Below are positions 1,651 to 33,573 of a stretch of DNA of 33,929 nt, in pieces; the stretch's first letter is position 1; the number at the start of each line of letters is the position of its first letter. The DNA comes from Sphingopyxis sp. (lineage in GTDB: Bacteria; Pseudomonadota; Alphaproteobacteria; Sphingomonadales; Sphingomonadaceae): the NCBI RefSeq assembly GCF_016793825.1, contig NZ_JAEULM010000016.1, forward strand, positions 1 to 33,929, in the 5' to 3' direction. The position numbers were made by a program, and so were the translations under genes. The notes below the pieces were generated by a model that was given only the letters and a program-made list of their open reading frames with translations, ran no database searches and was not told the origin of the DNA.

Positions 1651-2517
1651 CTAGACGGCGGCGAGTGCTGCCATCACCTGCCGCCCATCGCGAGCGAAAG
1701 CGCCGATCTCGACCGCATCGTCGCCGCCGCGTAGCACGAGGTGCAGTTCCTCGCCGCAGATCGCGGGCGATGTGCCGCGAAAATCGAAGCGCCGGACGGC
1801 ATTGTCGCCAAACCGCCGCTGCGCCAGGTCGAGGAGCAGGGTCGCGGTAAGCGGTCCGTGGACGACGAGGCCGCGGTAGCCTTCTTCCTGCGTCGCATAG
1901 GGCAGGTCGTAGTGGATGCGGTGGCTGTTGAAGGTCAGCGCCGAGTAGCGGAACAGCAGCGCCTCCGACGGCACGAGCGTCCGGTGCACATCCCAGCTCG
2001 ACGGGTCGAAGTCGCCAGCGCCGGGCGGCGGCGGGGCGGCGGGGGCTCCGGCGGGCGCAGGCTCGCGGAAGACGATCGACTGGATTTCACGGACGGCGAG
2101 GGTGCCGTCTCCATGCGTTTCATGCGCGATCTCGGCGAAGACCAGCTTGCCGGTACCGCCCTGCTTTTCGGTGATCGAGACAACGCGCGAGCTGCGCATC
2201 ACCGACTGACCGGGGCGCAGCGGGGCGATAAATTCGACCTTGCTCGCCGCCCACATCCGGCGCGGCAGGGGGATCGGCGGTAGGAAGCTGTCGTCGCTGT
2301 CCTCGCGTACCGGATGGCCGTCGGCACCGAGGATCGCCGTCGGCGCGTCGGGCAGGCACAGGCACCAGTGATAGGCCTGCGGGACACTGCCGTCGGCGGG
2401 CGCCGCGCGGTCGAGCGTCGCGAGCCAGCGCTTCACCGCCGACGCCTCGACGTGATCGTGGCGGACATCCTCGCGGCCGATCCATGCATGCCAGTCGTTC
2501 GTAATTTGGGCGCCCAT
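1651..2517 (-). CDS. MaoC/FAS1-like double hot-dog hydratase, mesaconyl-C4-CoA hydratase (Meh)-like
   Basis: The 288-residue protein is a two-domain hot-dog hydratase. A degenerate N-terminal half (about 1-150) is joined by an Ala/Pro-rich linker (153-170) to a C-terminal catalytic half. The active-site segment is FNSHRIHYD at 196-204: Asn197 stands where the classic MaoC motif (SGDxNPxH) has Asp, and His202 and Asp204 are kept. This variant is typical of the FAS1-like/HTD2 group, which includes mesaconyl-C4-CoA hydratase and itaconyl-CoA hydratase of about 280 residues. The expected reaction is hydration of an enoyl-CoA, perhaps mesaconyl-C4-CoA to citramalyl-CoA. The ATG at 2517 shares one base with the stop of the upstream dehydrogenase (TGATG) and has GAGGA 8 bp before it, so the two are translationally coupled. 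A general (3R)-enoyl-CoA hydratase is the main alternative. Confidence 0.72.
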   Translation of the reverse strand: MGAQITNDWHAWIGREDVRHDHVEASAVKRWLATLDRAAPADGSVPQAYHWCLCLPDAPTAILGADGHPVREDSDDSFLPPIPLPRRMWAASKVEFIAPLRPGQSVMRSSRVVSITEKQGGTGKLVFAEIAHETHGDGTLAVREIQSIVFREPAPAGAPAAPPPPGAGDFDPSSWDVHRTLVPSEALLFRYSALTFNSHRIHYDLPYATQEEGYRGLVVHGPLTATLLLDLAQRRFGDNAVRRFDFRGTSPAICGEELHLVLRGGDDAVEIGAFARDGRQVMAALAAV

Positions 2518-4112
2518 CAATTGCGTCCTCCGGTCAGCCCGCGCGCGATCACCTGCGCCTGAATCTCCGCTGCGCCCTCGAAGATATTGAGAATGCGCGC
2601 ATCACAGAGGATGCGACTGATCTCATATTCGAGCGCATAGCCGTTGCCGCCATGGATTTGCAGCGCGGCGTCGGCGTTCGACCATGCGGCGCGCGCGCCG
2701 AGCAGCTTCGCCATGCCCGCCTCGATATCGCAGCGCTTGCCCGAATCCTTGGCGCGCGCGGCGGCGTAACTCAGCTCGCGCGCCATGACGAAATCGACGA
2801 GGCTCATCGCGAGCTTGTCCGACACGCGCGGGAAAGCGATGATGGCCTTGCCGAATTGCTTGCGGGTCAGGGCATAATCGAGACCCAGCTCCAGCGCCCG
2901 GCGTGCGACGCCGACTGCGCGCGCCGCGGTCTGGATGCGGGCGCCCTCGAAGGTGCGCATGAGCTGCTTGAAGCCTTGCCCCTCCTCACCGCCGAGCAGG
3001 GCGTCGGCGGGTGCCGCGATCCCGTCGAACTGCAGCGCATATTCGCGCATCCCGCGATAGCCGAGCACCTCGATCTCGCTGCCGGTCATGCCGGCGGCAG
3101 GGAAGGGATCGGCCTCGGTCCCGCGCGGCTTGGGGACGAGCAGCATCGACAGCCCGGAATAGCCTTTGGCGTCGGGCAGGGTGCGTGCAAGCAAAGTCAT
3201 CAGGTCCGAGCGCGCGGCGTGGGTGATCCAGGTCTTGGCGCCATCGATGACCCAATGATGGCCGTCGCGCCGGGCTTTGGTTTGCAGCGAACCGAGGTCG
3301 GAGCCCACATCGGGTTCGGTGAACACGGCCGTTGGAAGGATTTCGCCGCTTGCGATTTTCGGCAGCCATTTGGCTTTCTGCGCGTCGGTGCCGCCCATCG
3401 CGATCAGTTCGCCGGCAATCTCGGATCGCGTTCCAAGCGAGCCGGCGCCGATCCAGCCGCGCGACAATTCTTCGGTGACGATGCACATGACGAGCTTGCC
3501 GAGGCCCAGCCCGCCATATTCCTCAGGAATGCAGACGCCGAAGGTGCCGAGTTCGGCCATCGCCGCGACCGTTGTATCGGGGATCAGGTCGTTGGCGAGG
3601 TGCCAGCCGTGCGCGTGGGGCAGGATCGCGGTGTCGGTGAAGCGGCGATACTGGTCGCGGATCGCGTCGAGGTCGGCGTCGTGCAGCGTCTCGCTGGGCC
3701 AATGACCTTCCGCGAGCGCGGCGGCGATCCCGGCGCGGGTTCTGGCATGGTCGGTGTCGAGCAGGTCAGCGTACGCTTCGGCGAGTGTTCGCGCGGCGGC
3801 ACCGAGACCGAGGTCGGCGGGACGGAAAATCTCATTCTGCCCCATCGGAAGGCCGCCGGCGAGCTGACCGATGCTTTCGGCAAAGGCGAGGGTGGCGACC
3901 TTTGCGTCGAGCGGGTTCGAGTCCTGGCCGGACTCGAGCCAGTCGAGCGTCGCCTCCAGCGCCGCGACGGTCGTCGCGACCCATGCGAAGCCATGCGCCG
4001 CGCGTTGCTCGCTATCGATCGGGCTGGCGGCCAGCCGTTCTGCGAGTGCGGCCTGCGTGGCGCTCCGATAGGCTTGAGCGGCGGTCAGCGCGTTGTTCAG
4101 ATCGGCCCGCAT
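2517..4112 (-). CDS. Long acyl-CoA dehydrogenase with N-terminal extension, methylsuccinyl-CoA dehydrogenase (Mcd)-like
   Basis: At 531 residues this is about 140 longer than a normal acyl-CoA dehydrogenase. Residues about 140-525 form the usual FAD fold, with the FTEPDVGSD flavin/substrate loop, the arginine-containing RKQFGKAI helix, QIHGGNGY, and Glu512 in IFEGAAEIQ at the usual catalytic-base position. The extra N-terminal domain (1-130) contains EQRAAHGFAWVAT and GGLPMGQNEIFRPADLGL. As I recall it, methylsuccinyl-CoA dehydrogenase of the ethylmalonyl-CoA pathway has the same kind of extension and very similar segments. That enzyme oxidises (2S)-methylsuccinyl-CoA to mesaconyl-C1-CoA and passes electrons to ETF. 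The start at 4112 has AGGA 8 bp upstream. The gene follows a 31-bp-arm inverted repeat in the spacer after the thiolase gene and is coupled to the hydratase. Being a dehydrogenase is near certain; the substrate is inferred. Confidence 0.75.
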   Translation of the reverse strand: MRADLNNALTAAQAYRSATQAALAERLAASPIDSEQRAAHGFAWVATTVAALEATLDWLESGQDSNPLDAKVATLAFAESIGQLAGGLPMGQNEIFRPADLGLGAAARTLAEAYADLLDTDHARTRAGIAAALAEGHWPSETLHDADLDAIRDQYRRFTDTAILPHAHGWHLANDLIPDTTVAAMAELGTFGVCIPEEYGGLGLGKLVMCIVTEELSRGWIGAGSLGTRSEIAGELIAMGGTDAQKAKWLPKIASGEILPTAVFTEPDVGSDLGSLQTKARRDGHHWVIDGAKTWITHAARSDLMTLLARTLPDAKGYSGLSMLLVPKPRGTEADPFPAAGMTGSEIEVLGYRGMREYALQFDGIAAPADALLGGEEGQGFKQLMRTFEGARIQTAARAVGVARRALELGLDYALTRKQFGKAIIAFPRVSDKLAMSLVDFVMARELSYAAARAKDSGKRCDIEAGMAKLLGARAAWSNADAALQIHGGNGYALEYEISRILCDARILNIFEGAAEIQAQVIARGLTGGRN

Positions 4113-4125
4113 CGTTATTTCCTAT

Positions 4126-4201
4126 CGTCACCCCGGACTTGATCCGGGGCCCCGCTCAGCGACGGTGAAAAGCGGGGCCCCGGATCAAGTCCGGGGTGAC
4201 G
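4126..4201. repeat. Long perfect inverted repeat in operon spacer (copy 1)
   Basis: Perfect 31-bp arms at 4126-4156 and 4171-4201 flank a 14-bp spacer. The core reads GTCACCCCGGACTTGATCC. It fills most of the gap between the thiolase stop and the start of the long dehydrogenase. The same core recurs at 5474-5550. I recall this element as a common intergenic palindrome of alphaproteobacteria. In RNA it would form a very stable hairpin. Confidence 0.9.
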
Positions 4202-4221
4202 AGGAAGGAGGTCGTTCACGC

Positions 4222-5436
4222 TCAGGCGGCACGTTCAAAGATCGCGGCGATGCCCTGACCGCCGCCGATGCACATGGTTTCAAGGCCATAGCGACCCTCG
4301 CGGCGAACCAGCTCGCGCGTCAGATTGGCGAGGATGCGCCCGCCGGTCGCGCCGATCGGATGGCCGAGCGAGATGCCCGATCCGTTGACGTTGAGGATTT
4401 CGTTCCGGCTGTCGTCGTCGGACCAGCCCCAGCCTTTGAGCACTGCGAGCACCTGCGGCGCGAAGGCTTCGTTGAGCTCGACGAGGTCTATGTCGCCCCA
4501 GCCGAGGCCGTTGCGTGCGAAGAGGCGTTCGACGGCAGGGACGGGGCCGATTCCCATGCGGCTGGGGTCGCAGCCCGCCGCCGCCGAGCTGTGATACCAG
4601 GCGATGGGTTCGAGACCGAGTTCGTCGAGCTTGTCCTCGGCGACGACAAGGCACGCGGCGGCGGCGTCATTCTGCTGGCTCGCATTGCCCGCCGTGACCA
4701 CGCCGCCTTCCAGCGCGCGCAGCTTGCCAAGCGTTTCCATGCTCGCGTCGGCGCGATAGCCCTCGTCGTGCGCGAAGACGACCGGATCGCCCTTTTTCTG
4801 GGGGACCGACACCGGCACCAGCTCGTCGTCGAACAGGCCGTTCGCCCACGCGGCGGCGGCGCGCTGGTGGCTGCGGACGGCATAGGCGTCGCACGCCTCG
4901 CGGCTGATATCGTAATCCTTGGCGAGATTTTCGGCGGTCTCGATCATGCCGGTGATGACGCCGAAGCGCTCGACGGGCTGCGACATGACGCGTCCGCGCG
5001 TCAGGCGGTCGTGGAGGGTGAGGTTGCCCGCGCGCACGCCCTTGCGGATATCGGTGCTGTAATGCTCGACGTTGGACATCGATTCGACGCCGCCCGCGAC
5101 GACGACGTCGGACATGCCGGTCTGGACCATCATCGCGGCGTTGACGACCGCCTGAAGCCCCGAGCCGCAGCGGCGGTCGAGTTGGTATCCCGGTACCTCG
5201 AGCGGCAGGCCGGCGGCGAGCCACGACCAATGGCCGATGCTGGGCGCCTCGGCGTTGCCATAGCCCTGCGAAAAGACGACGTCATCGACGCGCGCCGGGT
5301 CGATCTTGGTCCGCTCCATGAGCGCCTTCAGGATGACCGCGCCGAGGTCGCCCGCGGTGATCGACGAGAGCGACCCGCCGAACTTGCCAACGGCGGTACG
5401 GATGGGGGCGACGATGGCGGCGCGGCGCAGGGTCAT
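4222..5436 (-). CDS. Acetyl-CoA C-acyltransferase (thiolase II family)
   Basis: The 404-residue protein carries the complete thiolase active site: Cys90 in DRRCGSGLQ (acyl-enzyme nucleophile), the NEAF motif, His359 in SLGHPIGATGGR, and Cys389 in CIGGGQG. It should cleave 3-ketoacyl-CoA with free CoA, giving acetyl-CoA (or propionyl-CoA) and a shortened acyl-CoA, or act in the condensing direction. Length and motifs are those of ordinary degradative thiolases of the cytoplasm. The ATG at 5436 has GGAGA 7 bp upstream. It sits mid-operon, between two palindromic spacers. Its place beside a CoA-transferase, two acyl-CoA dehydrogenases, a hydratase and a hydroxyacyl-CoA dehydrogenase completes the enzyme set of a beta-oxidation cycle. 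The chain it acts on cannot be read from sequence. Confidence 0.93.
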   Translation of the reverse strand: MTLRRAAIVAPIRTAVGKFGGSLSSITAGDLGAVILKALMERTKIDPARVDDVVFSQGYGNAEAPSIGHWSWLAAGLPLEVPGYQLDRRCGSGLQAVVNAAMMVQTGMSDVVVAGGVESMSNVEHYSTDIRKGVRAGNLTLHDRLTRGRVMSQPVERFGVITGMIETAENLAKDYDISREACDAYAVRSHQRAAAAWANGLFDDELVPVSVPQKKGDPVVFAHDEGYRADASMETLGKLRALEGGVVTAGNASQQNDAAAACLVVAEDKLDELGLEPIAWYHSSAAAGCDPSRMGIGPVPAVERLFARNGLGWGDIDLVELNEAFAPQVLAVLKGWGWSDDDSRNEILNVNGSGISLGHPIGATGGRILANLTRELVRREGRYGLETMCIGGGQGIAAIFERAA

Positions 5437-5473
5437 ATTATGTCTCCGTTGAATATCGAAGGGTAAGCTGGTT

Positions 5474-5550
5474 CGTCACCCCGGACTTGATCCGGGGTCC
5501 ATTCAAAGCAACGTTGAGAGAATGGACCCCGGATCAAGTCCGGGGTGACG
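5474..5550. repeat. Long perfect inverted repeat in operon spacer (copy 2)
   Basis: Perfect 30-bp arms (5474-5503 and 5521-5550) flank a 17-bp centre. The outer 23-24 bp of each arm match copy 1 at 4126-4201; inner arm ends and spacer differ. It lies between the CoA-transferase stop (5563) and the thiolase start (5436), close to the thiolase ribosome-binding site. Confidence 0.9.
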
Positions 5551-5562
5551 AGGGGAAGGGAT

Positions 5563-6759
5563 TCAACCGACACCGACAATCCCCGCGTCGATCAGGCGGG
5601 CGATTTCGCCCGAAGACAACGACAATCGCTCGGCCAGCACCGCTTCGCTATGCTCGCCATTGCGCGGCGCCGGACGCGGCGGCTCGCGCTCCGCTTGCGG
5701 GATCGTCGCGAAGGCGCCCGCGGCAGGATAGGCGAAACCGCTGGGGTTGGCGGCGCTTCCGAAGATCGGATTGTCCGCGACCAACGCCGGGTCGTTCGCG
5801 GCGTCGAGCATCGTGCGATAGGGCGAATGGACGATCCCGCCCGCGTCGAAGGCGGCGGCGAGGTCGGCATGGTCGCGCGCCGCGATCGCCCGCTCGAACA
5901 GCGGATAGAGCGCGTCGCGGTGGGTGAAGCGAAGACCGTCGTCCTTCGCGAAGGAGACGCCGCGCGCCGCCTCGACGGCCGCGACCGCCTCGCCGAGATT
6001 CAATGCGGCGATCAGATTCGCCCATTGGCGCGGAGTGACGACGACGATCATCGTCCGCTGTCCGTCGCGGGTGGTGAAATCGCGCCCGAACAGGCCGTAG
6101 ACCGCATTGCCGAGCCGCGGGCGGTTCTCCCCCGTGTAAAGCACCTCGGCTAGGCCGCCCATATTGGCGACGGTGCCGATCGCGACATCGGAAAGCGGCA
6201 GGCGTACCTCGCCGCCTTCGCCGGTCGCGGCGCGGCGCTGGATCGCGGCGAGCAGCGCGAAGGCGGCATAGGCGCCGGTGAGCAGATCCCAGGCGGGCAG
6301 GACGTGATTGACCGGCTCCGACCCCGCCCCGGTGAGCATCGGATAGCCGACGCTGTTGTTGACCGTATAGTCGAGCGCGGGCGAGCCGTCGGCCCAGCCC
6401 ATCACGCGCACGGTGATCAGGTCGGGACGCCCCTCGGCGAGCAATTCGTGCGACAGGAAGCCGCCGGCGGGGAAGTTGGTGACGAACTGTCCGGTCGCGC
6501 GCACCAGCTCCTGCAACAACTCGCGTCCTTCGGGTCGGCCAAGGTCGAGCGCGACCGATTTCTTCGCGCGGTTGAGGTTTTCCCAATAGAGCGAATTATT
6601 CTCCGCCGTCACCGGCCATCGCCGAAAATCGGGGCCGCCGCCGATCTGGTCGACGCGGATCACCTCGGCGCCGAACTGCGCGAGGTAAAGGCCGGCGGTG
6701 GGGGAGGCGACGAAGGACGACGCCTCGATGACCGGGAGGGCGGAGAGGAGATTATACAT
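5563..6759 (-). CDS. Family III CoA-transferase, mesaconyl-CoA C1-C4 CoA transferase (Mct)-like
   Basis: This 398-residue protein is a CaiB/BaiF-type (family III) CoA-transferase. It has the N-terminal Rossmann-like part (FVASPTAGLYLAQFGAEVIR), the nucleophilic Asp158 in LPAWDLLTGAYAA, and the AATGEG turn. It lacks the active-site histidine of alpha-methylacyl-CoA racemases; the matching segment is DYTVNN. Several segments agree with my recollection of Chloroflexus Mct, the intramolecular transferase of the 3-hydroxypropionate bicycle: GGGPDFRRWPVT, FVTNFPAGGFLS, DYTVN, VNHVLPAWD, YGLFGRDF and SPYRTM. Mct moves CoA from the C1 to the C4 carboxyl of mesaconate. The neighbouring Mcd-like and Meh-like genes make and use just these two isomers, which supports the reading. 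An intermolecular transferase activating a free acid (for example itaconate) is the alternative. Start ATG at 6759, after GGG-rich sequence. Confidence 0.72.
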   Translation of the reverse strand: MYNLLSALPVIEASSFVASPTAGLYLAQFGAEVIRVDQIGGGPDFRRWPVTAENNSLYWENLNRAKKSVALDLGRPEGRELLQELVRATGQFVTNFPAGGFLSHELLAEGRPDLITVRVMGWADGSPALDYTVNNSVGYPMLTGAGSEPVNHVLPAWDLLTGAYAAFALLAAIQRRAATGEGGEVRLPLSDVAIGTVANMGGLAEVLYTGENRPRLGNAVYGLFGRDFTTRDGQRTMIVVVTPRQWANLIAALNLGEAVAAVEAARGVSFAKDDGLRFTHRDALYPLFERAIAARDHADLAAAFDAGGIVHSPYRTMLDAANDPALVADNPIFGSAANPSGFAYPAAGAFATIPQAEREPPRPAPRNGEHSEAVLAERLSLSSGEIARLIDAGIVGVG

Positions 6760-6779
6760 CCCAATCGCTCCCCAGCCCG

Positions 6780-6855
6780 GTCATCCCGGCGAAGGCCGGG
6801 ATCTCACCGTCGCATTTGGATGCACCGGCGAGACCCCGGCTTGCGCCGGGGTGAC
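6780..6855. repeat. Imperfect inverted repeat in operon spacer (second repeat type)
   Basis: Arms 6780-6809 and 6826-6855 pair over about 30 bp with five mismatches. The core is TCATCCCGGCGAAGGCCGGG, related to but different from the two palindromes at 4126 and 5474. It separates the acyl-CoA dehydrogenase from the CoA-transferase gene. I recall this core as another frequent intergenic repeat of alphaproteobacteria. Confidence 0.85.
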
Positions 6856-6889
6856 GGATATCGGAGAGGTGGGCTGGGCTATCCAAGTC

Positions 6890-8059
6890 TCAGTTCGCCG
6901 CCGCGAATTCGCGCAGCATATGCTTGGCGATCTGAAGCTGGAGAATCTGCGTCGTCCCTTCGTAGATGCGATAGATGCGCGCATCGCGGAAAAACCGTTC
7001 GGCGTCATATTCGGCGAGATAGCCGGCGCCGCCATAAACCTGCACACAGGCGTCGACGACGCGGCCGCACATTTCGGATGCGAACACCTTGAACGCCGCA
7101 GCCTTGCGCAGGACATTCTCGCCCGCGTCGGCGCGGCGTGTGACGTCCTCTATCATGCATTCGGCGGCATAGATGTCGATTTCGCTCTGCGCGAGCATCT
7201 GCTGGATAAGCTGGAAGTTCGCGATCGGTTCGCCGAAGGCCTTGCGCTCGGTCGCATAGCGGACCGCACTGTCGAGCGCGCGGCGGGCATAAGCCGTGGC
7301 GGCGGCGCCGACCGACATGCGGCCGTTGTCGAGGCTCATCATTGCGAAAGCGAAGCCCCTGCCAAGCTCGCCGCCGAGCAGCGCCTCGCCGCCGACGCGG
7401 ACATCGTCCATGACGACGTCGGCGATATGGCTGCCCGACTGGCCCATTTTCTTGTCCGACTTGCCGATCGTGACGCCGGGGGCGTCGAAGGGCACGACGA
7501 ACGCCGAGACATGGGCGTTCTTGGGCAGATTCTCCTTGCTCGTCCGCGCCATGATCAGGCCGACCTTCGCGAAGGGCGAGTTGGTGATGTAGCGCTTGGT
7601 GCCGTTCAGCACCCAGCCGTTGTCGGTCTGCGTCGCCGTCGTCTGAAGCCCCGCCGAGTCCGATCCCGATCCGGGTTCGGTGAGGCCGAAGCAGGCGATC
7701 TCGCCCGCCGCGACGCGCGGTAGCCATTCGGCTTTCTGCGCCTCGGTCCCGCCATTCTTGAGGGCCGAGGCGAACATGCCGATGTTGATCGAGATGATCG
7801 AGCGGAACGCCGGCATCGCATAGCTGATCGTGTGGATCGTCTTGACATATTGGCTGACGTTCATCCCCGCGCCGCCATAGTCTTCGGGAATGGTCAGGCC
7901 GAAGAGGCCCATGTCGCGCATTTCGGACAGGATGTCGTCGGGGATGCGGTCGGTTTCGACGATCTCCTTCTCGGCAGGGAGAAGGCGGTCGCGCACATAG
8001 CGTTCGAGCTGTTCGATGAATTGTTCGAAGACGTCCGCGTCCATGCCGGGGTTGCTCAT
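6890..8059 (-). CDS. Acyl-CoA dehydrogenase (standard length)
   Basis: At 389 residues this is a normal-sized FAD acyl-CoA dehydrogenase. It has the FGLTEPGSGSDSAG loop, KRYITNS, the RKAFGEPIANFQ helix, QVYGGAGY, and the catalytic base Glu367 in RIYEGTTQI. It introduces a trans-2 double bond into an acyl-CoA, with ETF as electron acceptor. The start is placed at 8059 (MSNPGMDADVF), where AGGAG lies 7 bp upstream; this leaves only 10 bp after the SDR stop. An earlier in-frame start would overlap the SDR gene and add a poorly conserved leader. The glutamate near the C-terminus points to straight-chain or short branched substrates rather than the isovaleryl type, but specificity is open. Confidence 0.93.
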   Translation of the reverse strand: MSNPGMDADVFEQFIEQLERYVRDRLLPAEKEIVETDRIPDDILSEMRDMGLFGLTIPEDYGGAGMNVSQYVKTIHTISYAMPAFRSIISINIGMFASALKNGGTEAQKAEWLPRVAAGEIACFGLTEPGSGSDSAGLQTTATQTDNGWVLNGTKRYITNSPFAKVGLIMARTSKENLPKNAHVSAFVVPFDAPGVTIGKSDKKMGQSGSHIADVVMDDVRVGGEALLGGELGRGFAFAMMSLDNGRMSVGAAATAYARRALDSAVRYATERKAFGEPIANFQLIQQMLAQSEIDIYAAECMIEDVTRRADAGENVLRKAAAFKVFASEMCGRVVDACVQVYGGAGYLAEYDAERFFRDARIYRIYEGTTQILQLQIAKHMLREFAAAN

Positions 8060-8069
8060 GGGTGGCTCC

Positions 8070-8987
8070 TCAGATGGGGTCATAGGGGAAGACATGCGCC
8101 GACACCTCGTCGGCGCGGGCAAACGCGGGGCGGAAGGCGGGAATCAACTCGTCGGCGATCGCCGCGGCGGTCCAGCCCTCGAGCCTGGTCATCGACCGCA
8201 CCGGGCGGGGTTTCGAAAAGAGCAATATCTCGTTCTTGCGCACGCTGAAAATCTGATTCGTCACATCCTTCGACAGGTCGGAGGCAAGATAAGCAACGAG
8301 CGGCGCAATCTTGTCGGCCGACATCGACTGGAGGCGCTTGACGCGCTCCTGCTCGGCAGGGGTTGTCGCGGGAATCGACGAGGTCATGCGGCTCCACGCG
8401 AACGGTGCGATGCAGTTCGAGCGGACGCCGACGCGCGCCATGTCGAGCGCGATCGACTGCGACAGCGCGACGACGCCCAGTTTCGCTGCAGAATAATTGG
8501 CCTGACCCACGTTGCCGATGAGGCCGCTGGTCGAGGTGAAGTGGATGAAGCTGCCCGACTGCTGTTCGCGGAAATACGGCGTCGCGGCCTTCGAGACGTT
8601 GAAGACGCCGGTCAGATTGACCTCGAGGACGCTCTTCCAGTCCTCATAGCTCATCTTGTGCCAGATGGTATCGCGCAGGATACCCGCGTTGTTCACGACA
8701 GCGTCGATGCGGCCAAATTTTGCGACCGCATCCTCAACGATGCTGGCTGCTTCCTTGGGGTCGGCCACGCTACCGAAATTGGCGGCCGCCCTGCCGCCTG
8801 CGGCGATGATATCGTTCGCGGTGGTTTCGGCCGGGGTGGCGTCGCCGCCGTCGCCGGCCTGTGCGACACCCGGATCGTTGACGACGACCGCTGCGCCCTC
8901 TGCGGCGCAATGCAGGGCGAGTTCGCGGCCGATACCGCGGCCCGCTCCGGTTATGGCTACGACCTTTCCATCAAGGCATCCGCTCAT
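8070..8987 (-). CDS. SDR 3-hydroxyacyl-CoA dehydrogenase (MFE-2/HSD17B4-like)
   Basis: The 305-residue short-chain dehydrogenase has TGAGRGIG (13-20) for NAD(P), NNAG (99-102), Asn124, and the catalytic triad Ser152, Tyr165, Lys169. The start of the fold (VVVNDPG after the nucleotide loop) and the roughly 60-residue tail beyond the catalytic domain are like the (3R)-hydroxyacyl-CoA dehydrogenase domain of peroxisomal multifunctional enzyme 2. It would oxidise a (3R)-hydroxyacyl-CoA to the 3-keto form, the thiolase substrate. MaoC-fold hydratases usually give (3R) products, so the two enzymes are stereochemically matched. It is the first gene of the operon; the ATG at 8987 has GGGAGA 6 bp upstream and faces the IclR gene across a 106-bp gap. 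Another SDR substrate cannot be excluded. Confidence 0.85.
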   Translation of the reverse strand: MSGCLDGKVVAITGAGRGIGRELALHCAAEGAAVVVNDPGVAQAGDGGDATPAETTANDIIAAGGRAAANFGSVADPKEAASIVEDAVAKFGRIDAVVNNAGILRDTIWHKMSYEDWKSVLEVNLTGVFNVSKAATPYFREQQSGSFIHFTSTSGLIGNVGQANYSAAKLGVVALSQSIALDMARVGVRSNCIAPFAWSRMTSSIPATTPAEQERVKRLQSMSADKIAPLVAYLASDLSKDVTNQIFSVRKNEILLFSKPRPVRSMTRLEGWTAAAIADELIPAFRPAFARADEVSAHVFPYDPI

Positions 8988-9062: not shown

Positions 9063-9080
9063 TTTTCATTATACTGAAAA
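9063..9080. promoter_or_regulatory. Candidate IclR operator in the divergent promoter
   Basis: TTTTCA-TTATAC-TGAAAA is a 6-bp inverted repeat with a 6-bp centre, lying just before the IclR start. TATACT (9070-9075) inside it could be a -10 box for the regulator gene. Similar half-sites (TTCA/TGA) recur at 9044-9062. IclR proteins commonly bind AT-rich palindromes that overlap the promoters of divergent genes. The assignment is positional only. Confidence 0.42.
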
Positions 9081-9093
9081 TAGGCAGGCGGAC

Positions 9094-9834
9094 ATGACCG
9101 GCCCCGTGCGCTCCGTCTCGCAAGCCTTTGCGATCCTCCGTCTGCTGGCCGATTCGAGCGCGCTGACGCTGTCGGATATCGGCCGCTTCGTCGGCCTCAG
9201 CCCGTCGAGCTGTCTCAACCTGCTGAAAACGCTGGTTGCGGAGGGGGTGGTCGAGCGGGATTCGCGAACGAAACTTTATCGCCTGTCGCCTCCATGGTGT
9301 GCGGCCGACGCTCTGCGTGACAGCCGTCCGGCGCGCCTCGTCGATCGGGCGCGGCCGCTCATGGCTGCCTTTGCCCAGCGCAGCGAAGCGGCCGTCGGGC
9401 TGTGGAAGATCGTCTCGCGCGACCGCATGCAGCTTGCGGTCCATGCCGAAAGCGACGCGGGGATGCGCCTCAGCCTCGCGGACGATCAGCGCCAGCCGCT
9501 GGGCAGCGGCGCGGCGGGGCGAGCGATTGCGGCGGTGCAGGATGTCGGTGAGGTCGAACTCGCGCGTCGCTATGCGCCCGTGCGCTGGCAGGCGGACCTG
9601 CCGTTCGCACGCTATGCGCGACAGGTGCGCGAAGCCTCCGCGCGCGGCTTTGCCCTTGATCAGGGTTTTACCCACCGGGGCGTGTGGACGGTGGCCGCTG
9701 GCATTGCCGATGTCGCGCCAGGATATTGCCTGTCCGCTTCGGTGGTCGCAGGTTCGCGCAGCGAGGCTGAAACCGAGGCGCTCGGCGCGGCCTTGATCGG
9801 GCTGCGCGAGGAGCTAATCCTGCAGACGGGGTAG
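9094..9834 (+). CDS. IclR-family transcriptional regulator
   Basis: This 246-residue protein has an N-terminal winged helix-turn-helix (about residues 5-65; VRSVSQAFAILRLLAD, then SDIGRFVGLSPSSCLNLLK) followed by the C-terminal effector-binding domain typical of IclR proteins. Such regulators bind a small acid or CoA ester and control the adjacent catabolic operon as repressor or activator. It is divergent from the six-gene acyl-CoA operon, whose first start is 106 bp away, so that operon is the likely target. The ATG at 9094 was chosen because the HTH domain begins directly after it; a frame extending to 9025 would run through the presumed operator. The effector-domain residues do not reveal the ligand. 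Confidence 0.88.
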   Translation: MTGPVRSVSQAFAILRLLADSSALTLSDIGRFVGLSPSSCLNLLKTLVAEGVVERDSRTKLYRLSPPWCAADALRDSRPARLVDRARPLMAAFAQRSEAAVGLWKIVSRDRMQLAVHAESDAGMRLSLADDQRQPLGSGAAGRAIAAVQDVGEVELARRYAPVRWQADLPFARYARQVREASARGFALDQGFTHRGVWTVAAGIADVAPGYCLSASVVAGSRSEAETEALGAALIGLREELILQTG

Positions 9835-9909: not shown

Positions 9910-11133
9910 ATGAAGTTCGACGTGGTGATCGTGGGGGCCGGACATGGCGGCGCTCAGGTGGCGGTTATGCTGCGCACGCAAAAGTTCGAAGGCAGTATCG
10001 CGATGATCGGCGACGAGCCCGAGCTTCCCTATGAGCGACCGCCGCTGTCAAAGGAATATTTCGCGGGGGAGAAGGAGTTCGAGCGCATCCAGCTCCGCCC
10101 GGCAAAATATTGGGACGAGCGCGCGGTAACGATGCTGCTCGGCAAGCGTGTCGTGTCGGTCGATCCCGCGGCGCATACGGTGACCACCGACGGCGGCGAG
10201 ACCATCGGTTATGGCAAGCTCGTCTGGGCGACCGGCGGTAGCCCGCGGATGCTGCCGATTCCCGGCGGCGACCTGCCCGGCGTGCAGGGGGTGCGAACTC
10301 GCGCCGATGCCGATGCGATGAAGGCGGCGTCGGAAACCGCGAAGCAGATCGTCGTGATCGGCGGCGGCTATATCGGGCTGGAAGCGGCGGCGGTGCTGAC
10401 CAAGGCGGGCAAGAAGGTCGTGCTGCTCGAAGCGCTGGATCGCGTCCTCGCGCGGGTCGCGGGAGTCGAGCTTTCGCGCTTCTATGAAAAGGAACATCGC
10501 GATCACGGTGTCGACTTGCGCCTGGGCGTGTCGGTCGCGGCGATCGAAGGCGAGGACCATGTGACGGGCGTGCGTCTGGCTGATGGTGAACTGATCCCCG
10601 CCGATCTGGTCATCGTCGGCATCGGTATTGTTCCTGCCGTCGAACCGCTGATCGCGGCGGGGGCCGAGGGTGGCAATGGGGTGCTTGTCGACCGGCACTG
10701 CAAGACGAGCCTTCCGGACATCTATGCGATCGGCGACTGTGCGGCACACGAAAATCATTTTGCCGAAGGGGCGACCATTCGTCTTGAATCGGTCCAAAAT
10801 GCCAACGACCAGGCGAATGTCGTCGCCAAGGGCATCGTCGGCGATGAAGCGCCCTATCATGCGATTCCCTGGTTCTGGTCCAACCAGTACGACCTGAAGC
10901 TCCAAACGGCGGGGCTGTCGACCGGTCACGACCATGCGGTGCTTCGCGGTGATGTCGCGAGCCGCAGCTTTTCGATCGTCTATCTGAAAGCCGGCAAGGT
11001 CATCGCGCTGGACTGCGTCAATGCCACCAGAGATTATGTCCAGGGCCGGATGATCGTCACCGCGGGGCTCGCTGCCACCCCCGAACAGCTTGCCGATGTC
11101 GATAAGCCGCTCAAGGAATTGCTGCCTTCCTAG
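9910..11133 (+). CDS. FAD-dependent ferredoxin/rubredoxin reductase
   Basis: The 407-residue flavoprotein has two dinucleotide-binding sites: GAGHGG at 9-14 for FAD and GGGYIG at 151-156 for NAD(P)H. It also has the [10 protein letters not shown] segment and the ATGG and YAIGDCAAH motifs that contact FAD. This is the putidaredoxin/rhodocoxin reductase type, which moves electrons from NADH to a small 2Fe-2S ferredoxin serving a P450 or Rieske oxygenase. The C-terminal dimerisation-type domain (from about 325, [12 protein letters not shown]) is present. GGAGG lies 5 bp before the ATG. No ferredoxin, P450 or oxygenase is in the window, so its partner is elsewhere. It follows the IclR gene by 75 bp and may be co-regulated. 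The stop codon overlaps that of the convergent DUF4126 gene. Confidence 0.88.
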
Positions 11134-25987: not shown

Positions 25988-26674
25988 GTGACTGCAACCG
26001 GTCACGGAGCCCGCCATGTCGCCATCATCATGGATGGCAATGGTCGTTGGGCCAAAAAGCGTTTTCTTCCGCGCGTCGCCGGTCACAAGGCCGGGGTCGA
26101 GGCGGTGCGCGCGATCGTGCGCGCCGCCGGGGATCTCGGTATCGAGGCGATGACGCTCTATGCCTTTTCGTCCGAAAACTGGAAACGGCCCCAGGAAGAG
26201 GTCAGCGATCTCATGGGGCTGATGAAGCGCTTCATCATCAGCGACCTCGACGAATTCGCCGCCAACGACGTACGCCTGAAAGTGATCGGTGACTGGCGGG
26301 GGCTGGCTCCCGATGTCGTCGCGCTGATCGAAAACGCGCTGGAACGGACGGCCGGCAACAAGCGCACGACGCTGGCCGTTGCGCTTAACTATGGCGCGCA
26401 GGACGAACTGGTCCGCGCGGCGAAGGCGGCAGCGGCGGCGGGGGAGATCACCGCGGAGGCGATCGAGGCGAACCTCGATACCGCCGATATGCCTCCGCTC
26501 GACCTGCTGATCCGCACCTCAGGCGAAGTACGGCTGTCGAACTTTCTGCTCTGGCAATCGGCTTATGCCGAACTCTATTTCACCGACCGGTTGTGGCCGG
26601 ATTTCACGCCCGCCGATCTGCAGGCGGCGCTCGATCATTTTGCACGGCGCGAGCGCCGTTACGGGGGACTCTAG
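25988..26674 (+). CDS. uppS: (Z,Z)-undecaprenyl diphosphate synthase (isoprenyl transferase)
   Basis: The 228-residue cis-prenyltransferase builds undecaprenyl diphosphate, the lipid carrier for peptidoglycan. It carries [16 protein letters not shown] (Asp16 catalytic, binding Mg2+), the [11 protein letters not shown] motif, and the C-terminal [19 protein letters not shown] and [14 protein letters not shown] segments. The start is a GTG at 25988, since no ATG lies upstream of the conserved N-terminus. GGGGAGGATTT immediately before it supplies a good ribosome-binding site, which belongs to the repeat element at 25850-25986. cdsA follows after 3 bp. Confidence 0.96.
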
Positions 26675-26677
26675 GAT

Positions 26678-27364
26678 ATGGCGTCAGGCACGACCAAGGC
26701 CGGATCGGACCTGTGGACGCGCGTCGGATCGGCGATCGTGCTGTTCGCGATCGCGGGCACGGCATTGTGGTTCGGGGGCATTGCGTTCGGTCTGTTGCTG
26801 CTCGTTGGCGGGGCGCTGGTGGTGGTCGAATGGCTCGCGCTCGTTCGCGCCATGGGTCTTGGCGGCGGGTCGAGAGCGGCGCTGATGCTGCTCGGACCGG
26901 TCGCGATCCTCGGCGCGATGGCGGGGCTGTGGTTCCTTCGCGACTATCTGGGCATGACCGCCGCGCTCTGGGTCTTCGGCATGGTCTGGGCGACCGATAT
27001 CGGCGCCTATTTCGCGGGCCGCGCGTTCGGGGGCGCGCGCCTGGCGCCGCGGATCAGCCCGTCGAAAACCTGGTCGGGTCTGTTCGGCGGCATGGTCGCA
27101 GCGCTTGTCGTCGGCTCGACGGTCGCCGATCGCGGCGGAATCGTGGGGGTGCCGCTGTGGATCGGGCTGGTAATGGGCTTGGTCGCCCAGCTCGGTGACC
27201 TCGGGGAAAGCTGGATGAAACGTCGCGCGGGAGTCAAGGATTCGGGAAAGCTGATCCCCGGACACGGCGGCCTGTTCGACCGCGTCGATGGCTTGTTGCC
27301 CGTTGCGCTGTTGCTGGGTGGGCTGGCGTTCGCGGGTCAGATCGCCGTACGGGCAGCGGGTTGA
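26678..27364 (+). CDS. cdsA: Phosphatidate cytidylyltransferase
   Basis: The 228-residue membrane protein makes CDP-diacylglycerol from phosphatidate and CTP, the precursor used by PssA encoded upstream in the window. It has about six membrane helices and the CdsA signature near the C-terminus, SWMKRRAGVKDSGKLIPGHGG, which has the essential Lys-Asp and His-Gly-Gly. At 228 residues it is shorter than the E. coli enzyme (285), as is common in alphaproteobacteria. It starts 3 bp after uppS and ends one base before dxr, so translation of the set is coupled. Confidence 0.95.
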   Translation: MASGTTKAGSDLWTRVGSAIVLFAIAGTALWFGGIAFGLLLLVGGALVVVEWLALVRAMGLGGGSRAALMLLGPVAILGAMAGLWFLRDYLGMTAALWVFGMVWATDIGAYFAGRAFGGARLAPRISPSKTWSGLFGGMVAALVVGSTVADRGGIVGVPLWIGLVMGLVAQLGDLGESWMKRRAGVKDSGKLIPGHGGLFDRVDGLLPVALLLGGLAFAGQIAVRAAG

Positions 27365-27365
27365 T

Positions 27366-28529
27366 ATGATGCGCCGCCTCTCGCTGTTCGGTGCAACGGG
27401 ATCGGTCGGGCAGTCGACCCTCGACCTCGTCCGCCGCGACCGCGAGAGCCTTCGGGTCAGCGTGCTGACAGCGAACAGCGATGTCGCCGAACTGGCGCGA
27501 CTGGCGCTGGAATTTCGTCCCGATCTGGTCGTGATTGCCGATGAGAAGCGCTATGACGACCTCAAGCAGGCGCTTGCCGGCACGAATATCGGCGTCGCCG
27601 CAGGGGCAGATGCGCTGATCGAGGCCGCTCAATATCCCACCGACCTGGTGATGGCGGCGATCGTCGGCATCGCCGGCCTTGCGCCAACGATGGCGGCGCT
27701 GGAGGCAGGGGTCGATGTCGCGCTGGCCAACAAGGAGGCGCTGGTGTCGGCAGGCGAACTGATGACCGCCGCGGCGCGCAAATCGGGCGCGACGATCCTG
27801 CCGGTCGACAGCGAACATAACGCCATTTTCCAGTGTCTCGCGGGTGGGCGGATCGATCAGGTGCGCCGCATCATCCTGACCGCGAGCGGTGGACCGTTCC
27901 GGACGATGAGCGCGGACGACATGGCGCGCGCCACGCCCGCGCAGGCGGTCGCGCATCCGAACTGGTCGATGGGCGCGAAGATCAGCGTCGATTCGGCGAC
28001 CATGATGAACAAGGGCCTCGAACTGATCGAGGCGCACCACCTGTTCCCCGTCGGGCTCGATCGCATCGAAATCCTTGTGCACCCGCAGTCGGTGATTCAC
28101 AGTCTGGTCGAGTTTGTCGACTGTTCGACGCTGGCGCAGCTCGGCTCGCCCGACATGCGCATTCCGATCAGCAGTGCACTCGCCTGGCCGCAGCGGATGG
28201 TGACGCCGTGCGCGCCGCTCGACCTCGCCAGCATCGCGCGGCTGGATTTCGAGGCGCCCGACGAAGTGCGCTTTCCAGCGACCGCGCTATGTCGCGCCGC
28301 GATTGCGGAGGGCGGGGCGCGCCCGGCCCAGCTCAACGCCGCGAACGAGGTGGCCGTCGCCGCATTTCTCGCTGGCCGTATTTCCTTTCCGGCGATCGTC
28401 GAAACCGTGCGTCGCGTGATCGATGCGGACGCGCCCGCGACGCCTGCCTCGCTTCAGGACATATTCAGCGTGGATGTCGCATCGCGCGCGGCGGCCCAGT
28501 ATCTTGTGGATCATTTCGAACATGCATAG
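27366..28529 (+). CDS. dxr: 1-deoxy-D-xylulose 5-phosphate reductoisomerase
   Basis: The 387-residue enzyme converts DXP to 2-C-methyl-D-erythritol 4-phosphate in the non-mevalonate isoprenoid pathway, using NADPH and a divalent metal. The NADPH loop GATGSVG is at 9-15. Metal ligands Asp148 and Glu150 (PVDSEHN), and Glu219, together with the substrate residues Ser174, His197, Ser210, Asn215 and Lys216, all align with E. coli Dxr at a constant offset. Its location beside uppS is logical, as both feed undecaprenyl synthesis. Two adjacent ATGs (27366, 27369) follow the cdsA stop by one base. The last 8 bp overlap the rseP start. Confidence 0.97.
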   Translation: MMRRLSLFGATGSVGQSTLDLVRRDRESLRVSVLTANSDVAELARLALEFRPDLVVIADEKRYDDLKQALAGTNIGVAAGADALIEAAQYPTDLVMAAIVGIAGLAPTMAALEAGVDVALANKEALVSAGELMTAAARKSGATILPVDSEHNAIFQCLAGGRIDQVRRIILTASGGPFRTMSADDMARATPAQAVAHPNWSMGAKISVDSATMMNKGLELIEAHHLFPVGLDRIEILVHPQSVIHSLVEFVDCSTLAQLGSPDMRIPISSALAWPQRMVTPCAPLDLASIARLDFEAPDEVRFPATALCRAAIAEGGARPAQLNAANEVAVAAFLAGRISFPAIVETVRRVIDADAPATPASLQDIFSVDVASRAAAQYLVDHFEHA

Positions 28530-29652
28530 CGTGCCGGTCTGGCTCTATTTCGTCGGCTTCCTGCTCGTCCTGGGGCCGCTGGTCTTCGTTCACGAATATG
28601 GACATTATATTGTCGGCCGCTGGTGCGGGGTGAAGGCGGATACCTTCTCGATCGGCTTCGGGCGCAAGATCCTCGGCTGGACCGACAAGCGCGGCACCGA
28701 ATGGAAGATCGGCTGGTTGCCGCTTGGCGGCTATGTCCAGTTCGCGGGAGACCGCGACGCGGTGAGCCAGCCCGACGCCAACTGGCAGGCACTGCCCGCC
28801 GAGGAACGTTCGCATACCTTTCCCGCGCAGGCCGTGTGGAAGCGGGCGCTGATCGTTGCCGCGGGTCCGGTGACCAATTTCCTCTTCGCGGTGCTGATCC
28901 TCGCCGGTTTCGCCGCCTTCGTCGGCACGGCGACGACTCCGGCTGTTGTCGGCGCGGTCCAGGCGGGGTCGGCCGCGGAGATCGCGGGACTCCGTCCCGG
29001 CGACCGGATCCTGTCGATCGACGGCCGTCAGACCGACGTCTTCATGGATATCCCAATGACCATTGCGCATCGTCCCGGCGAGGAGGTGAGCGTTCGCATC
29101 CGGCGCGGGGGTGCCGAACGGGTGGTTCAGGTGACGCCGCGGCTCGTCAAGGACAAGGACCAGTTCGGCAAGGAGTATGAGCGGGCGATCCTGGGTGTTG
29201 CGCCCGGGAAGGTCGTTTTCGAGCGGGTTTCGCTGACGCAGGCGCCGTTTGTCGCGGTCAAGCAGACGGGCCAGATCATTCGCCAGACCGGCGAGGTGCT
29301 TGGTCAATTGCTCTCGGGCAACCGGTCGGTGAAGGATTTGAGCGGCCCCCTCAAGATCGCGCAGGTTTCGGGCGAAGCGGCGAGTGTGGGTCCGGAAGCA
29401 CTGATCTTCCTCGCTGCGATGATTTCCATCAATCTGGGGTTCATCAATCTGTTGCCATTGCCCATGCTCGATGGCGGCCACCTGCTTTTCTATGCCTACG
29501 AGGCGATCCGGCGCCGTCCAGCGCCGCTTCAGGCGCAGGAATGGGCCTTCCGATTCGGTTTTGCGGCGGTCGTAACGTTGATGCTGGTCGTGACTTTCAA
29601 TGATTTGGGCTCATTCGGCCTTTGGGACCGGATCGCGCGCTTGATTGGATAG
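28522..29652 (+). CDS. rseP: RIP metalloprotease RseP/MmpA (site-2 protease)
   Basis: The 376-residue inner-membrane zinc protease has the active-site motif HEYGH (His24, Glu25, His28) in its first helix, a PDZ domain at about 130-200 (GSAAEIAGLRPGDRILSIDG), and the second motif NLLPLPMLDGGHL in a late helix, whose Asp completes the zinc site. It cuts membrane-spanning anti-sigma factors and remnant signal peptides. Alphaproteobacterial versions (MmpA in Caulobacter) also process polarity proteins. It starts inside the dxr 3' end (ATGCATAG overlap), so it is translationally coupled. Only one PDZ is evident, against two in E. coli RseP (450 residues). Confidence 0.95.
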   Translation: MHSVPVWLYFVGFLLVLGPLVFVHEYGHYIVGRWCGVKADTFSIGFGRKILGWTDKRGTEWKIGWLPLGGYVQFAGDRDAVSQPDANWQALPAEERSHTFPAQAVWKRALIVAAGPVTNFLFAVLILAGFAAFVGTATTPAVVGAVQAGSAAEIAGLRPGDRILSIDGRQTDVFMDIPMTIAHRPGEEVSVRIRRGGAERVVQVTPRLVKDKDQFGKEYERAILGVAPGKVVFERVSLTQAPFVAVKQTGQIIRQTGEVLGQLLSGNRSVKDLSGPLKIAQVSGEAASVGPEALIFLAAMISINLGFINLLPLPMLDGGHLLFYAYEAIRRRPAPLQAQEWAFRFGFAAVVTLMLVVTFNDLGSFGLWDRIARLIG

Positions 29653-29723
29653 GCGGACTGGTGCAGGAGTGCGCGCCAACCCGCAGGGAAGCGGGCTTGT
29701 CGCTTTTGAGTTATTTTTGCGGG

Positions 29724-32402: not shown

Positions 32403-33088
32403 TGAAGAAAATTCTCACTGCATCGGCGCTCGCCATTGCCGCGCTGTCGGTTTCGCCCATGGTCGCCGTGCCGGCCGCCGCGCAGGCGAAGTCCGTCGCG
32501 CTTGCCGACGTTCGCGCCGCGGCCGCCAAGTCGAACGCCTTCACGGTCGCAACCCAGCAGATCGAGACCACCTACAAGGCGCAGATCGACCAGCAGAACA
32601 CGCGCGGCCAGACGCTGCAGGCGGAAATGAACGTGTTGATCGCGAAGTATAACGAAGAGTCGAAGAAGACTCCGCAGAATCAGGCCGCCTTGCAGGCTGC
32701 GGCCAAGGCTGTTCAGGACAAGCGCCAGGCGGCCAACGCCGAAATCGCGCAGATCGGCGCGCCTGTCGAACTGGCCATCGCCTATGTCGAAGATCAGATC
32801 AGCGTTCGCATGAACGAGGCGATCAAGGCGGCGATGACGGCGAAGAAGGTCGACCTGCTGCTCAACCCCGATGCCATTCTGGCGCGCGAACCCAGCGTCG
32901 ATATCACCGATGCCGTAGTCGCCGAACTCAATCGTATTCTGCCGAACGTGTCGATCGCGGTTCCGGCCGGATATCAGCCCGGCCAGCTCGTCCAGCAGCG
33001 CAACCAGCAACTGATGGACGCAGCGCGTAGTGCGCAGCCCGCTACGGCTCCCGCCGCTCCGACCGGCAGCGCACCGACGACCCGCTAA
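32402..33088 (+). CDS. ompH: OmpH/Skp family periplasmic chaperone
   Basis: The 228-residue protein begins with a signal peptide ([16 protein letters not shown]..., cleavage after AQA near residue 29). The mature part is mostly charged, Ala/Gln-rich helix (about 45-130) fit to form the coiled-coil tentacles of Skp, with [13 protein letters not shown] as the first strand of the body. It holds unfolded outer-membrane proteins during transit to BamA, with which it is coupled by the TGATG overlap. It is longer than E. coli Skp (161), the extra being an Ala/Pro/Thr-rich, probably disordered tail. fabZ follows after 5 bp. Confidence 0.9.
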
Positions 33089-33093
33089 GCATC

Positions 33094-33573
33094 ATGGCGG
33101 ACGGGGAAAGCGCGGGCGAAACCCTGGGTCCGGTGGATATCCGCCGGATACTGGGATTGCTGCCGCATCGTTATCCGATGCTGCTCGTCGATCGGGTGGA
33201 ATCGATGGTGAAGGACACCTCGATCCACGCGGTCAAGGCGGTGACGATGAACGAGCCCTTCTTTCAGGGGCATTTCCCCGGCCGGCCGATTATGCCTGGC
33301 GTCCTGATCGTCGAAGCGCTCGCGCAGGCGGGCGGCGTGTTGGCGATCGAATCGCTCGGGCTCGCGGGCACGGGCAAGCTCGTCTACTTCATGGGGATCG
33401 ACGGGGTGAAGTTCCGCAAACCGGTGGAACCGGGCCATCTGCTCGATCTGCATGTCACGATTCTTCAGGCGAAACGGAACATCTGCCGGTTCGAGGGCAA
33501 GGCAATGCTGGGCGGTCAGTTGGCGACCGAGTGCCAGTTCACCGCGATGATCGCCGATCCGCCAGCCGATTGA
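33094..33573 (+). CDS. fabZ: 3-hydroxyacyl-[acyl-carrier-protein] dehydratase FabZ
   Basis: The 159-residue hot-dog enzyme dehydrates 3-hydroxyacyl-ACP in fatty-acid synthesis. It has [14 protein letters not shown] and the catalytic pair His60 ([14 protein letters not shown]) and Glu74 ([10 protein letters not shown]). Length is normal. In most Gram-negatives fabZ here is preceded by lpxD and followed by lpxA and lpxB. In this genome it directly follows ompH and is followed by rpmE, so the lipid A genes are missing from the cluster. Confidence 0.97.

Follow-up and report, generated by a model that had tools for sequence, protein, structure and literature searches.

A sphingomonad operon that appears to combine enzymes from two separate carbon pathways in a single route to acetyl-CoA and pyruvate

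Which pathway is served by an operon that carries Mcd, known from the ethylmalonyl-CoA pathway, beside likely counterparts of Mct and Meh from the 3-hydroxypropionate bicycle? The question is raised by a locus of Sphingopyxis sp., lying in a window of 33,929 nucleotides (the whole stretch of DNA analysed; contig NZ_JAEULM010000016.1). Six minus-strand genes (1651-8987), divergent from an IclR regulator gene, encode a MFE-2-type 3-hydroxyacyl-CoA dehydrogenase, an acyl-CoA dehydrogenase, a Mct-like CoA-transferase, a thiolase, Mcd and a Meh/Ich-type hydratase. The first-pass annotation had reported the Mcd-, Mct- and Meh-like genes in one minus-strand operon, and they are indeed found there; it knew of no described pathway with this trio, and our literature searches likewise found no published description of an Mcd-Mct-Meh route. 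Because the genes recur together in relatives and the transferase is found in 59 of 60 same-genus genomes (window genome included), their grouping is more than chance. Judged from sequence, this sphingomonad operon appears to unite enzymes known from two separate carbon pathways, which together would lead from a methyl-branched C5 compound to acetyl-CoA and pyruvate.

The 531-aa dehydrogenase (2517..4112, minus strand) is convincingly assigned by its sequence to Mcd, a predicted (2S)-methylsuccinyl-CoA dehydrogenase. It reaches 615 bits with the Paracoccus Mcd 6es9 over residues 24-526, the next match being at 270 bits, and it does possess the N-terminal extension attributed to it, since the dehydrogenase domains begin near residue 147. 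We checked nine residues selected from the published active site (carboxylate-binding arginines, methyl pocket and catalytic Glu; PMC5798300), i.e., S248, R252, A285, F287, R376, E380, T418, R421 and E535 in PdMCD numbering (PMC5798300), and all are kept in 47 of 47 Mcd rows, window included. The PdMCD loop residue K379 is an Arg in the window protein. Downstream, the predicted mesaconyl-C4-CoA hydratase of Meh/Ich type (1651..2520, minus strand; FAS1-DH/MaoC, PF13452 E 5e-12) has 289 codons from a TTG and 288 from the next ATG, and its frame shares 4 bases or 1 base, respectively, with the end of the Mcd gene. The 288 residues noted earlier correspond to the ATG start, and the motif reads FNSHRIHYD. 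Among solved structures, two chains match best, at 192 bits, and one of these is named itaconyl-CoA hydratase; the protein is 62% identical to the hydratase of a module on the Sphingobium plasmid pSHV1. It belongs to the Meh/Ich family. A tree that includes relatives from Roseiflexus and Accumulibacter, unrooted and with an uncertain Ich reference, places it in a clade of its own and does not separate Meh from Ich. Ich itself hydrates mesaconyl-C4-CoA as well as itaconyl-CoA (PMC12290011).

The Mct-like enzyme (5563..6759, minus strand, 398 aa) is a family III CoA-transferase, as previously described (PF02515 E 1.9e-60), with the catalytic aspartate D158 present. It matches Mct 8apq at 334 bits, whereas outside the two Mct chains no protein exceeds 102 bits. 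With TIGR04253 it scores 350 bits, under the cut-off of 725, followed by the profiles of succinate-glutarate CoA-transferase (121 bits) and succinyl-CoA:mesaconate CoA-transferase (87 bits). Phylogenetically, its kinship with characterised Mct holds at one level and not at the other: the protein falls in a Mct superclade that is separate from the remaining family III enzymes (SH-aLRT 100, measured against 13 outgroup rows, two of these from a Roseiflexus), but beside the characterised Mct branch and not inside it, the sister branch containing the Roseiflexus and Accumulibacter rows (each of the two branches has support 92 in a quick tree). Among the substrate-binding and catalytic residues of Mct (PMC9813914), R47, N95, D130 and D158 are present in 175 of 175 aligned rows, and Y131 of the window protein is replaced by F in 20 of the 175. 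Known intramolecular enzymes carry Leu or Ile where the window transferase has P43; this proline occurs in 45 of 64 sphingomonad-set rows, while 104 of 110 other rows have L or I. The Chloroflexus arginines R75, R104 and R314 also have no counterpart Arg in the window enzyme.

The first-pass annotation suggested that the other genes might shorten a branched chain to methylsuccinyl-CoA. The SDR, being of MFE-2 type, agrees with this idea, as do the neighbouring genes of branched-chain type in relatives, but a branched-chain source can only be presumed. The SDR (8070..8987, minus strand), of peroxisomal MFE-2 or (3R)-hydroxyacyl-CoA dehydrogenase type, has as best PDB matches 2et6, a (3R)-hydroxyacyl-CoA dehydrogenase, and 3oml, a MFE-2, with 17beta-HSD4 among the next. 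The thiolase (4222..5436, minus strand) belongs to the PRK06205 subfamily (677 bits, cut-off 551), its best PDB relative being the beta-ketothiolase 5byv (420 bits). The acyl-CoA dehydrogenase (6890..8122, minus strand) is of short-chain type by its Pfam domains, with SCAD-like but unspecific PDB matches; judging from same-genus ORFs of 389-401 aa, its true start is perhaps near 8059. Among relatives, whose loci were tabulated by tblastn, a MaoC hydratase and a lipid-transfer-like thiolase occur, and the operon of Sphingomonas paeninsulae has the order SDR-MaoC-OBfold-thiolase-ACAD-Mct-Mcd-Meh. The divergent IclR-type regulator (9094..9834, plus strand; PF09339 E 2e-9), which may control the operon, has its longest ORF from 9025, the ATG at 9094 being the likelier start, and its BhcR-like score of 70 bits is below the cut-off of 350. 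Between regulator and operon lies an operator-like palindrome, TTTCA-N6-TGAAA (9064..9079), which is the single match in the window (0 in 100 shuffles); one match each was found in 6 of the 21 relatives' loci scanned (L052, L054, L056, L059, L066 and L112).

From these gene families, we propose that the operon probably encodes the last part of methyl-branched dicarboxylic acid breakdown, via methylsuccinyl-C1-CoA to acetyl-CoA and pyruvate. One round of beta-oxidation would fall to the acyl-CoA dehydrogenase, the MFE-2-type SDR and the thiolase, together with an enoyl-CoA hydratase from outside the operon (some relatives have a separate MaoC gene); 4-methyladipyl-CoA, taken as an example substrate, would give acetyl-CoA and methylsuccinyl-C1-CoA. 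Mcd would then form mesaconyl-C1-CoA, Mct would shift the CoA from C1 to C4, and the Meh/Ich hydratase would produce (S)-citramalyl-CoA. A CitE-type lyase, encoded away from the operon, would finally cleave this product into acetyl-CoA and pyruvate. For this last step, the genome search returned three PF03328 genes (L009, L010 and L011), none of them in the operon. The unlinked CitE-type L010 and L011 are candidates: L011 and L010 score 172 and 120 bits with RipC_Ccl (cut-off 375), L010 slightly higher with citE than with RipC, and L011 adjoins a biotin carboxylase-like ORF. L009 had no match to the other lyases compared by BLAST.

Plasmids of other bacteria provide more compact versions. On Sphingobium pSHV1, Mct, Mcd, Meh and a RipC-like lyase are four adjacent genes, the lyase scoring best with RipC_Ccl (266 bits against a cut-off of 375; the family that follows reaches 122) and being only 32-35% identical to L010 and L011. 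On a Pseudorhizobium flavum plasmid, Mcd, Mct, a Meh-type hydratase and a lyase lie between 12.4 and 39.2 kb, and both plasmids carry a pyruvate carboxylase no more than about 5 kb from the lyase. Speaking against the proposed route, two Novosphingobium plasmids carry Mcd-Meh with no Mct adjoining. On pCADAB1 the sequence past Mcd enters a transposase, with no hydratase or lyase annotated in the 8 kb after Mcd. An origin of these modules in MCPA-type herbicides was set aside: the chemistry as drawn gives the C4 ester, not the C1 ester, which makes a link to these plasmids no more than suggestive. Around the pSHV1 module, the annotation shows no tfd-type gene within 12 kb. Overall, the hybrid Mcd-Mct-Meh route of the first-pass annotation is partly supported: sequence similarity, conserved residues, co-occurrence, synteny and the plasmid with a lyase beside the same three genes speak for it; on the other hand, the transferase stands beside the characterised Mct branch, under its profile cut-off and with Pro replacing Leu/Ile, the hydratase is not separable from itaconyl-CoA hydratase, and the operon has no lyase of its own (two unlinked CitE-type candidates).

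Could the transferase and hydratase act instead on a larger branched dicarboxyl-CoA within the beta-oxidation round, CoA being moved between carboxyls in a ThnP-like manner, and Mcd alone, where present, on the C5 compound? We regard this as unlikely. In its favour, many family loci show the order ACAD-Mct-Thl-Meh, Mcd being absent from the stretch. P43 and the lost CoA-contact arginines hint at an altered entrance, and ThnP is reported as an intramolecular CoA-transferase of naphthalene degradation, a pathway with a larger diacid (PMC11659651). The loci of this order also speak against our main route, as does the lack of Mcd in 58 of 119 Mct-carrying family genomes (at the threshold used) and in 11 of 39 of those in the class sample, Mct having a use without Mcd there. 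Against the rival, Mct is present in 61 of 62 Mcd-bearing family genomes (Fisher p 1e-28, kinship disregarded), a co-occurrence that likewise favours the main route, the two starts being at most 5 kb apart in 34 of the 61; no beta-oxidation genes are annotated beside the pSHV1 Mct-Mcd-Meh-lyase module; and neither the mesaconate-binding R47 nor the catalytic Asp varies, with Y or F at the position of Y136.

Much less probable is a metabolite salvage, in which propionyl-CoA carboxylase and methylmalonyl-CoA mutase misform methylsuccinyl-CoA from butyryl-CoA and the trio clears the product: the nearly genus-wide presence of Mct would be unusual for a niche catabolic trait, but the thiolase, SDR, dehydrogenase and divergent regulator with its operator-like site point to a growth substrate. 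An itaconate degradation operon is highly improbable: the hydratase does match itaconyl-CoA hydratase and Ich has both activities (PMC12290011), but the transferase is Mct-like by its profile scores and the operon has neither a lyase nor a second CoA-transferase. The ethylmalonyl-CoA pathway, or a variant for acetate assimilation, is rejected as scarcely credible even though Mcd is a late enzyme of it and the thiolase and SDR would suit acetoacetyl-CoA formation and reduction, because crotonyl-CoA carboxylase/reductase (Ccr) stays under the cut-off of 378.55 in the window genome (best 69 bits) and exceeds it in 0 of 298 family genomes, so that Mcd hardly serves this pathway here, and because an isocitrate lyase gene is present. 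This gene also weakens the need for an anaplerotic route. In the class sample, Mct accompanies Mcd in 19 of 32 genomes without Ccr versus 9 of 84 with it (p 2e-7), which favours the main route; the 13 Mcd genomes with neither Ccr nor Mct speak against it.

The proposed breakdown route shares parts with several known systems. Mcd is common to the ethylmalonyl-CoA pathway, but here there is no Ccr, and mesaconyl-C1-CoA would go to the C4 ester, not to beta-methylmalyl-CoA. The second half of the 3-hydroxypropionate bicycle has in common the Mct-like transferase, the Meh-type hydratase and the citramalyl-CoA lyase step; its mesaconyl-C1-CoA derives from beta-methylmalyl-CoA, whereas here it would come from methylsuccinyl-CoA oxidation, in a catabolic and not CO2-fixing direction. 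The pseudomonad itaconate/methylsuccinate cluster (Ict, Ich, Ccl, C4-type dehydrogenase and Msi; PMC12290011, PMC9875883) shares an Ich-type hydratase and a Ccl-type lyase, but holds CoA on C4 from the outset and has no Mct, unlike the sphingomonad operon with its ethylmalonyl-type Mcd (C1 ester) and Mct. In the 4-methylmuconolactone (mml) pathway, a thiolase yields methylsuccinyl-CoA and acetyl-CoA (PMC6449761), as is proposed here; our searches found no literature pairing methylsuccinyl-CoA with methyl-3-oxoadipate.

Upstream, peroxisome-type branched-chain beta-oxidation uses MFE-2 and SCPx. The likeness lies in the MFE-2-type SDR of this operon and in the MaoC hydratase and lipid-transfer-like thiolase of relatives; the sphingomonad version differs in being bacterial, in its separate genes and in its coupling to a C5 dicarboxylate module. 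A steroid C/D-ring origin was set aside, as such breakdown should yield propionyl-CoA and succinyl-CoA.

On balance we lean, by a small degree, towards a broader reading: an undescribed sphingomonad pathway, almost genus-wide, that takes methylsuccinyl-C1-CoA to acetyl-CoA and pyruvate through an ethylmalonyl-independent Mcd with catabolic Mct and Meh, forms the general terminal path for 3-methyl-branched dicarboxylates (those from the omega ends of isoprenoids and from methylated aromatics) and is also carried on plasmids of herbicide degraders. For annotation, Mcd by itself is no proof of an ethylmalonyl-CoA pathway, 32 of the 116 Mcd genomes in the class sample having no Ccr match. If true, the proposal would extend the roles of Mcd beyond the ethylmalonyl-CoA pathway and those of Mct and Meh beyond CO2 fixation, and would offer a way out for a CoA ester that another bacterium would be unable to process further (PMC12290011). 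In a large bacterial family, it would also account for the fate of the C5 remnant, methyl group included, that isoprenoids and methylated aromatics leave behind.

Three genes of one minus-strand operon (1651-8987) had been proposed to encode a route in which methylsuccinyl-CoA would be oxidized to mesaconyl-C1-CoA (Mcd), converted to the C4 ester (Mct), hydrated to citramalyl-CoA, and finally cleaved by a lyase into acetyl-CoA and pyruvate. The trio lies where the first-pass annotation had placed it, within a six-gene run. On its sequence, we regard the acyl-CoA dehydrogenase as an Mcd. Indeed, its top match among solved structures is the Paracoccus Mcd 6es9 (615 bits, runner-up at 270 bits), and 8ciw, named (2S)-methylsuccinyl-CoA dehydrogenase, reaches 256 bits. 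PMC5798300 describes three Arg for the free carboxylate, an Ala and a Phe for the methyl pocket, the catalytic Glu, and supporting residues. The nine of these residues that were checked are retained in 47 of 47 Mcd rows (long coverage at ≥50% identity, window included); a further loop residue, K379, is an Arg in the window protein.

The transferase had been proposed as an Mct, and here the proposal holds in part. Two solved Mct chains match it at 334 and 332 bits (next protein, 102 bits), and long transferase matches across the loci analyzed fall into two groups separated by an empty gap, 174 at ≥38% identity and 18 below 30%. In a 69-row tree, built by a quick method and without bootstrap, the Mct-like set forms a single clade (SH-aLRT 100) versus 13 other family III transferases (including two from a Roseiflexus). 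One sub-branch (support 92) groups 20 sphingomonad rows with 3 others, and its sister (support 92, 33 rows) includes the Roseiflexus and Accumulibacter Mct. Among the key residues, taken from PMC9813914 and PMC9196870, Arg47 and the catalytic aspartate are invariant in 175 of 175 rows, and the place of Tyr136 is held by Tyr (155 rows) or Phe (20). On the other hand, the window protein has Pro43 in place of Leu or Ile, lacks Arg at the R75, R104, and R314 places (mapped by hand on the alignment), and scores 350 bits against a curated cut-off of 725; for these reasons, its membership is not certified. The best inference is that it works like Mct. The hydratase belongs to the Meh/Ich family, its two top solved chains both scoring 192 bits and one being named itaconyl-CoA hydratase. 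Our tree does not discriminate between Meh and Ich, and Ich doubles as mesaconyl-C4-CoA hydratase according to PMC12290011.

The ethylmalonyl-CoA pathway is made very unlikely by the lack of any Ccr match above the cut-off (378.55) in the source genome (best, 69 bits) or in the 298 family genomes, the control Caulobacter vibrioides being detected. Across 289 genomes sampled from the class, Mcd was found in 84 of 87 Ccr genomes, as this pathway requires. Mct was present in 19 of 32 Mcd genomes without Ccr vs 9 of 84 with it (Fisher p 2e-7). Thirteen of these 32 also lack Mct, and 11 of 39 Mct genomes lack Mcd. In the family, Mcd occurs in 62 of the 298 genomes, Mct in 119, and both in 61, with starts less than 5 kb apart in 34 of the 61 and less than 10 kb in 40. 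The class and family counts alike disregard genome kinship, which makes p values optimistic, and they vary with the chosen E-value limits. The 58 of 119 Mct genomes without Mcd at the threshold used count against the proposed route. Also against it, Mct is absent within the genus from 1 of 60 genomes (G042, 76% complete), and a separate search found it absent from another small genome, G355.

Synteny is clearest in Sphingobium herbicidovorans, on whose plasmid pSHV1 the Mct, Mcd, hydratase, and aldolase/citrate lyase genes are consecutive, with a divergent regulator ahead and a pyruvate carboxylase gene farther along, after the module. Its Mct, Mcd, and hydratase are 76%, 80%, and 62% identical to their window counterparts, and the lyase of this module scores 266 bits for RipC_Ccl, below the cut-off of 375 (next family, 122). 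A Pseudorhizobium flavum plasmid carries MmgE/PrpD, Mcd, Mct, hydratase, and lyase genes at 11.0-39.2 kb, then ETF and pyruvate carboxylase genes after the lyase region. In pCADAB1, from an MCPA-degrading Sphingomonas, the herbicide genes end about 23 kb away from Mct and Mcd; the terms methylsuccin and acyl-CoA are absent from the main text of PMC3877037. Counting against the route, the two Novosphingobium plasmids inspected, out of three such Mcd records, hold an Mcd-hydratase pair with no Mct nearby (L241:9917-12363, L242:9917-12360), adjoining MarR and efflux-system genes, and none of the 23 Mct-bearing plasmid records is from Novosphingobium.

Of 59 hand-picked family loci, 15 include all three genes by our reading of the sequence retrieved; 14 others include Mct and hydratase but not Mcd, which also counts against the route, Mcd being elsewhere in the genome for some. 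Outside the family, 2 of 20 class loci (L133, L134) hold the trio within about 4 kb. Among the best 80 of 543 Mct-aligned genome loci, 8 lie near an Mcd (identity 45% or more) and 19 near a Meh-type hydratase. In related genera, ACAD, Mct, and thiolase genes, with or without the hydratase, also form a compact operon, and the stretch carries no Mcd (L084, L087, L095, L096, L111, L114, and similar). Separately, in Variovorax and plasmid pAKD34, a distant Mcd-like dehydrogenase adjoins an Mct-like transferase (L122:5319-8218, L121:5296-8206, L191). The L122 and L121 dehydrogenases share 40-43% identity with the window Mcd; together with the transferase, such a dehydrogenase may form a sister dehydrogenase/CoA-isomerase pair that serves another diacid.

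Past the SDR, the plus strand carries genes of the IclR and ferredoxin reductase types. The palindrome TTTCA-N6-TGAAA (9064-9079) is the sole match in the window (0 in 100 shuffles). It falls within the longest IclR ORF, which favors the ATG at 9094 as the start. Among 21 relatives' loci (18 same-genus loci, L112, L113, and L120), it occurs once each in six (L052, L054, L056, L059, L066, L112), at the regulator gene start by locus coordinates. The flavoprotein gene (9910-11133) adjoins the regulator and keeps its position in L052 and L056; it is therefore possibly a P450 or dioxygenase partner. Farther away, genes 25988-33573 resemble what we take to be a conserved envelope cluster (uppS, cdsA, dxr, rseP, bamA, skp, fabZ).

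The literature on methylsuccinyl-CoA, mesaconyl-CoA, and citramalyl-CoA that we searched, mostly outside subscription journals, gives the pseudomonad C4 route, whereas the route proposed here is C1; we did not find the latter described there, nor in titles and abstract openings of Sphingo- papers with methylsuccinyl-CoA, and no mention of methylsuccin was found in the papers retrieved on Sphingobium herbicidovorans and mecoprop. As for the entry compound, the structure of 4-methyladipyl-CoA indicates that it would yield methylsuccinyl-C1-CoA and acetyl-CoA. The nearest solved relatives of the SDR are peroxisomal MFE-2-type (3R)-hydroxyacyl-CoA dehydrogenases, and the operons of some relatives add a MaoC hydratase, an HMG-CoA synthase-related OB-fold protein, and a lipid-transfer-like thiolase, the full set being found in Sphingomonas paeninsulae. 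The latter two genes form a pair at L113:5122-7828 and are repeatedly seen beside Mct in sphingomonads. With the SDR, this set is an established tool kit for methyl-branched chains. The source genome holds six P450 genes, and both of the two compared are CYP153-like. Taken with the SDR type and the relatives' branched-chain genes, these P450s make isoprenoid or methylated compounds plausible substrates.
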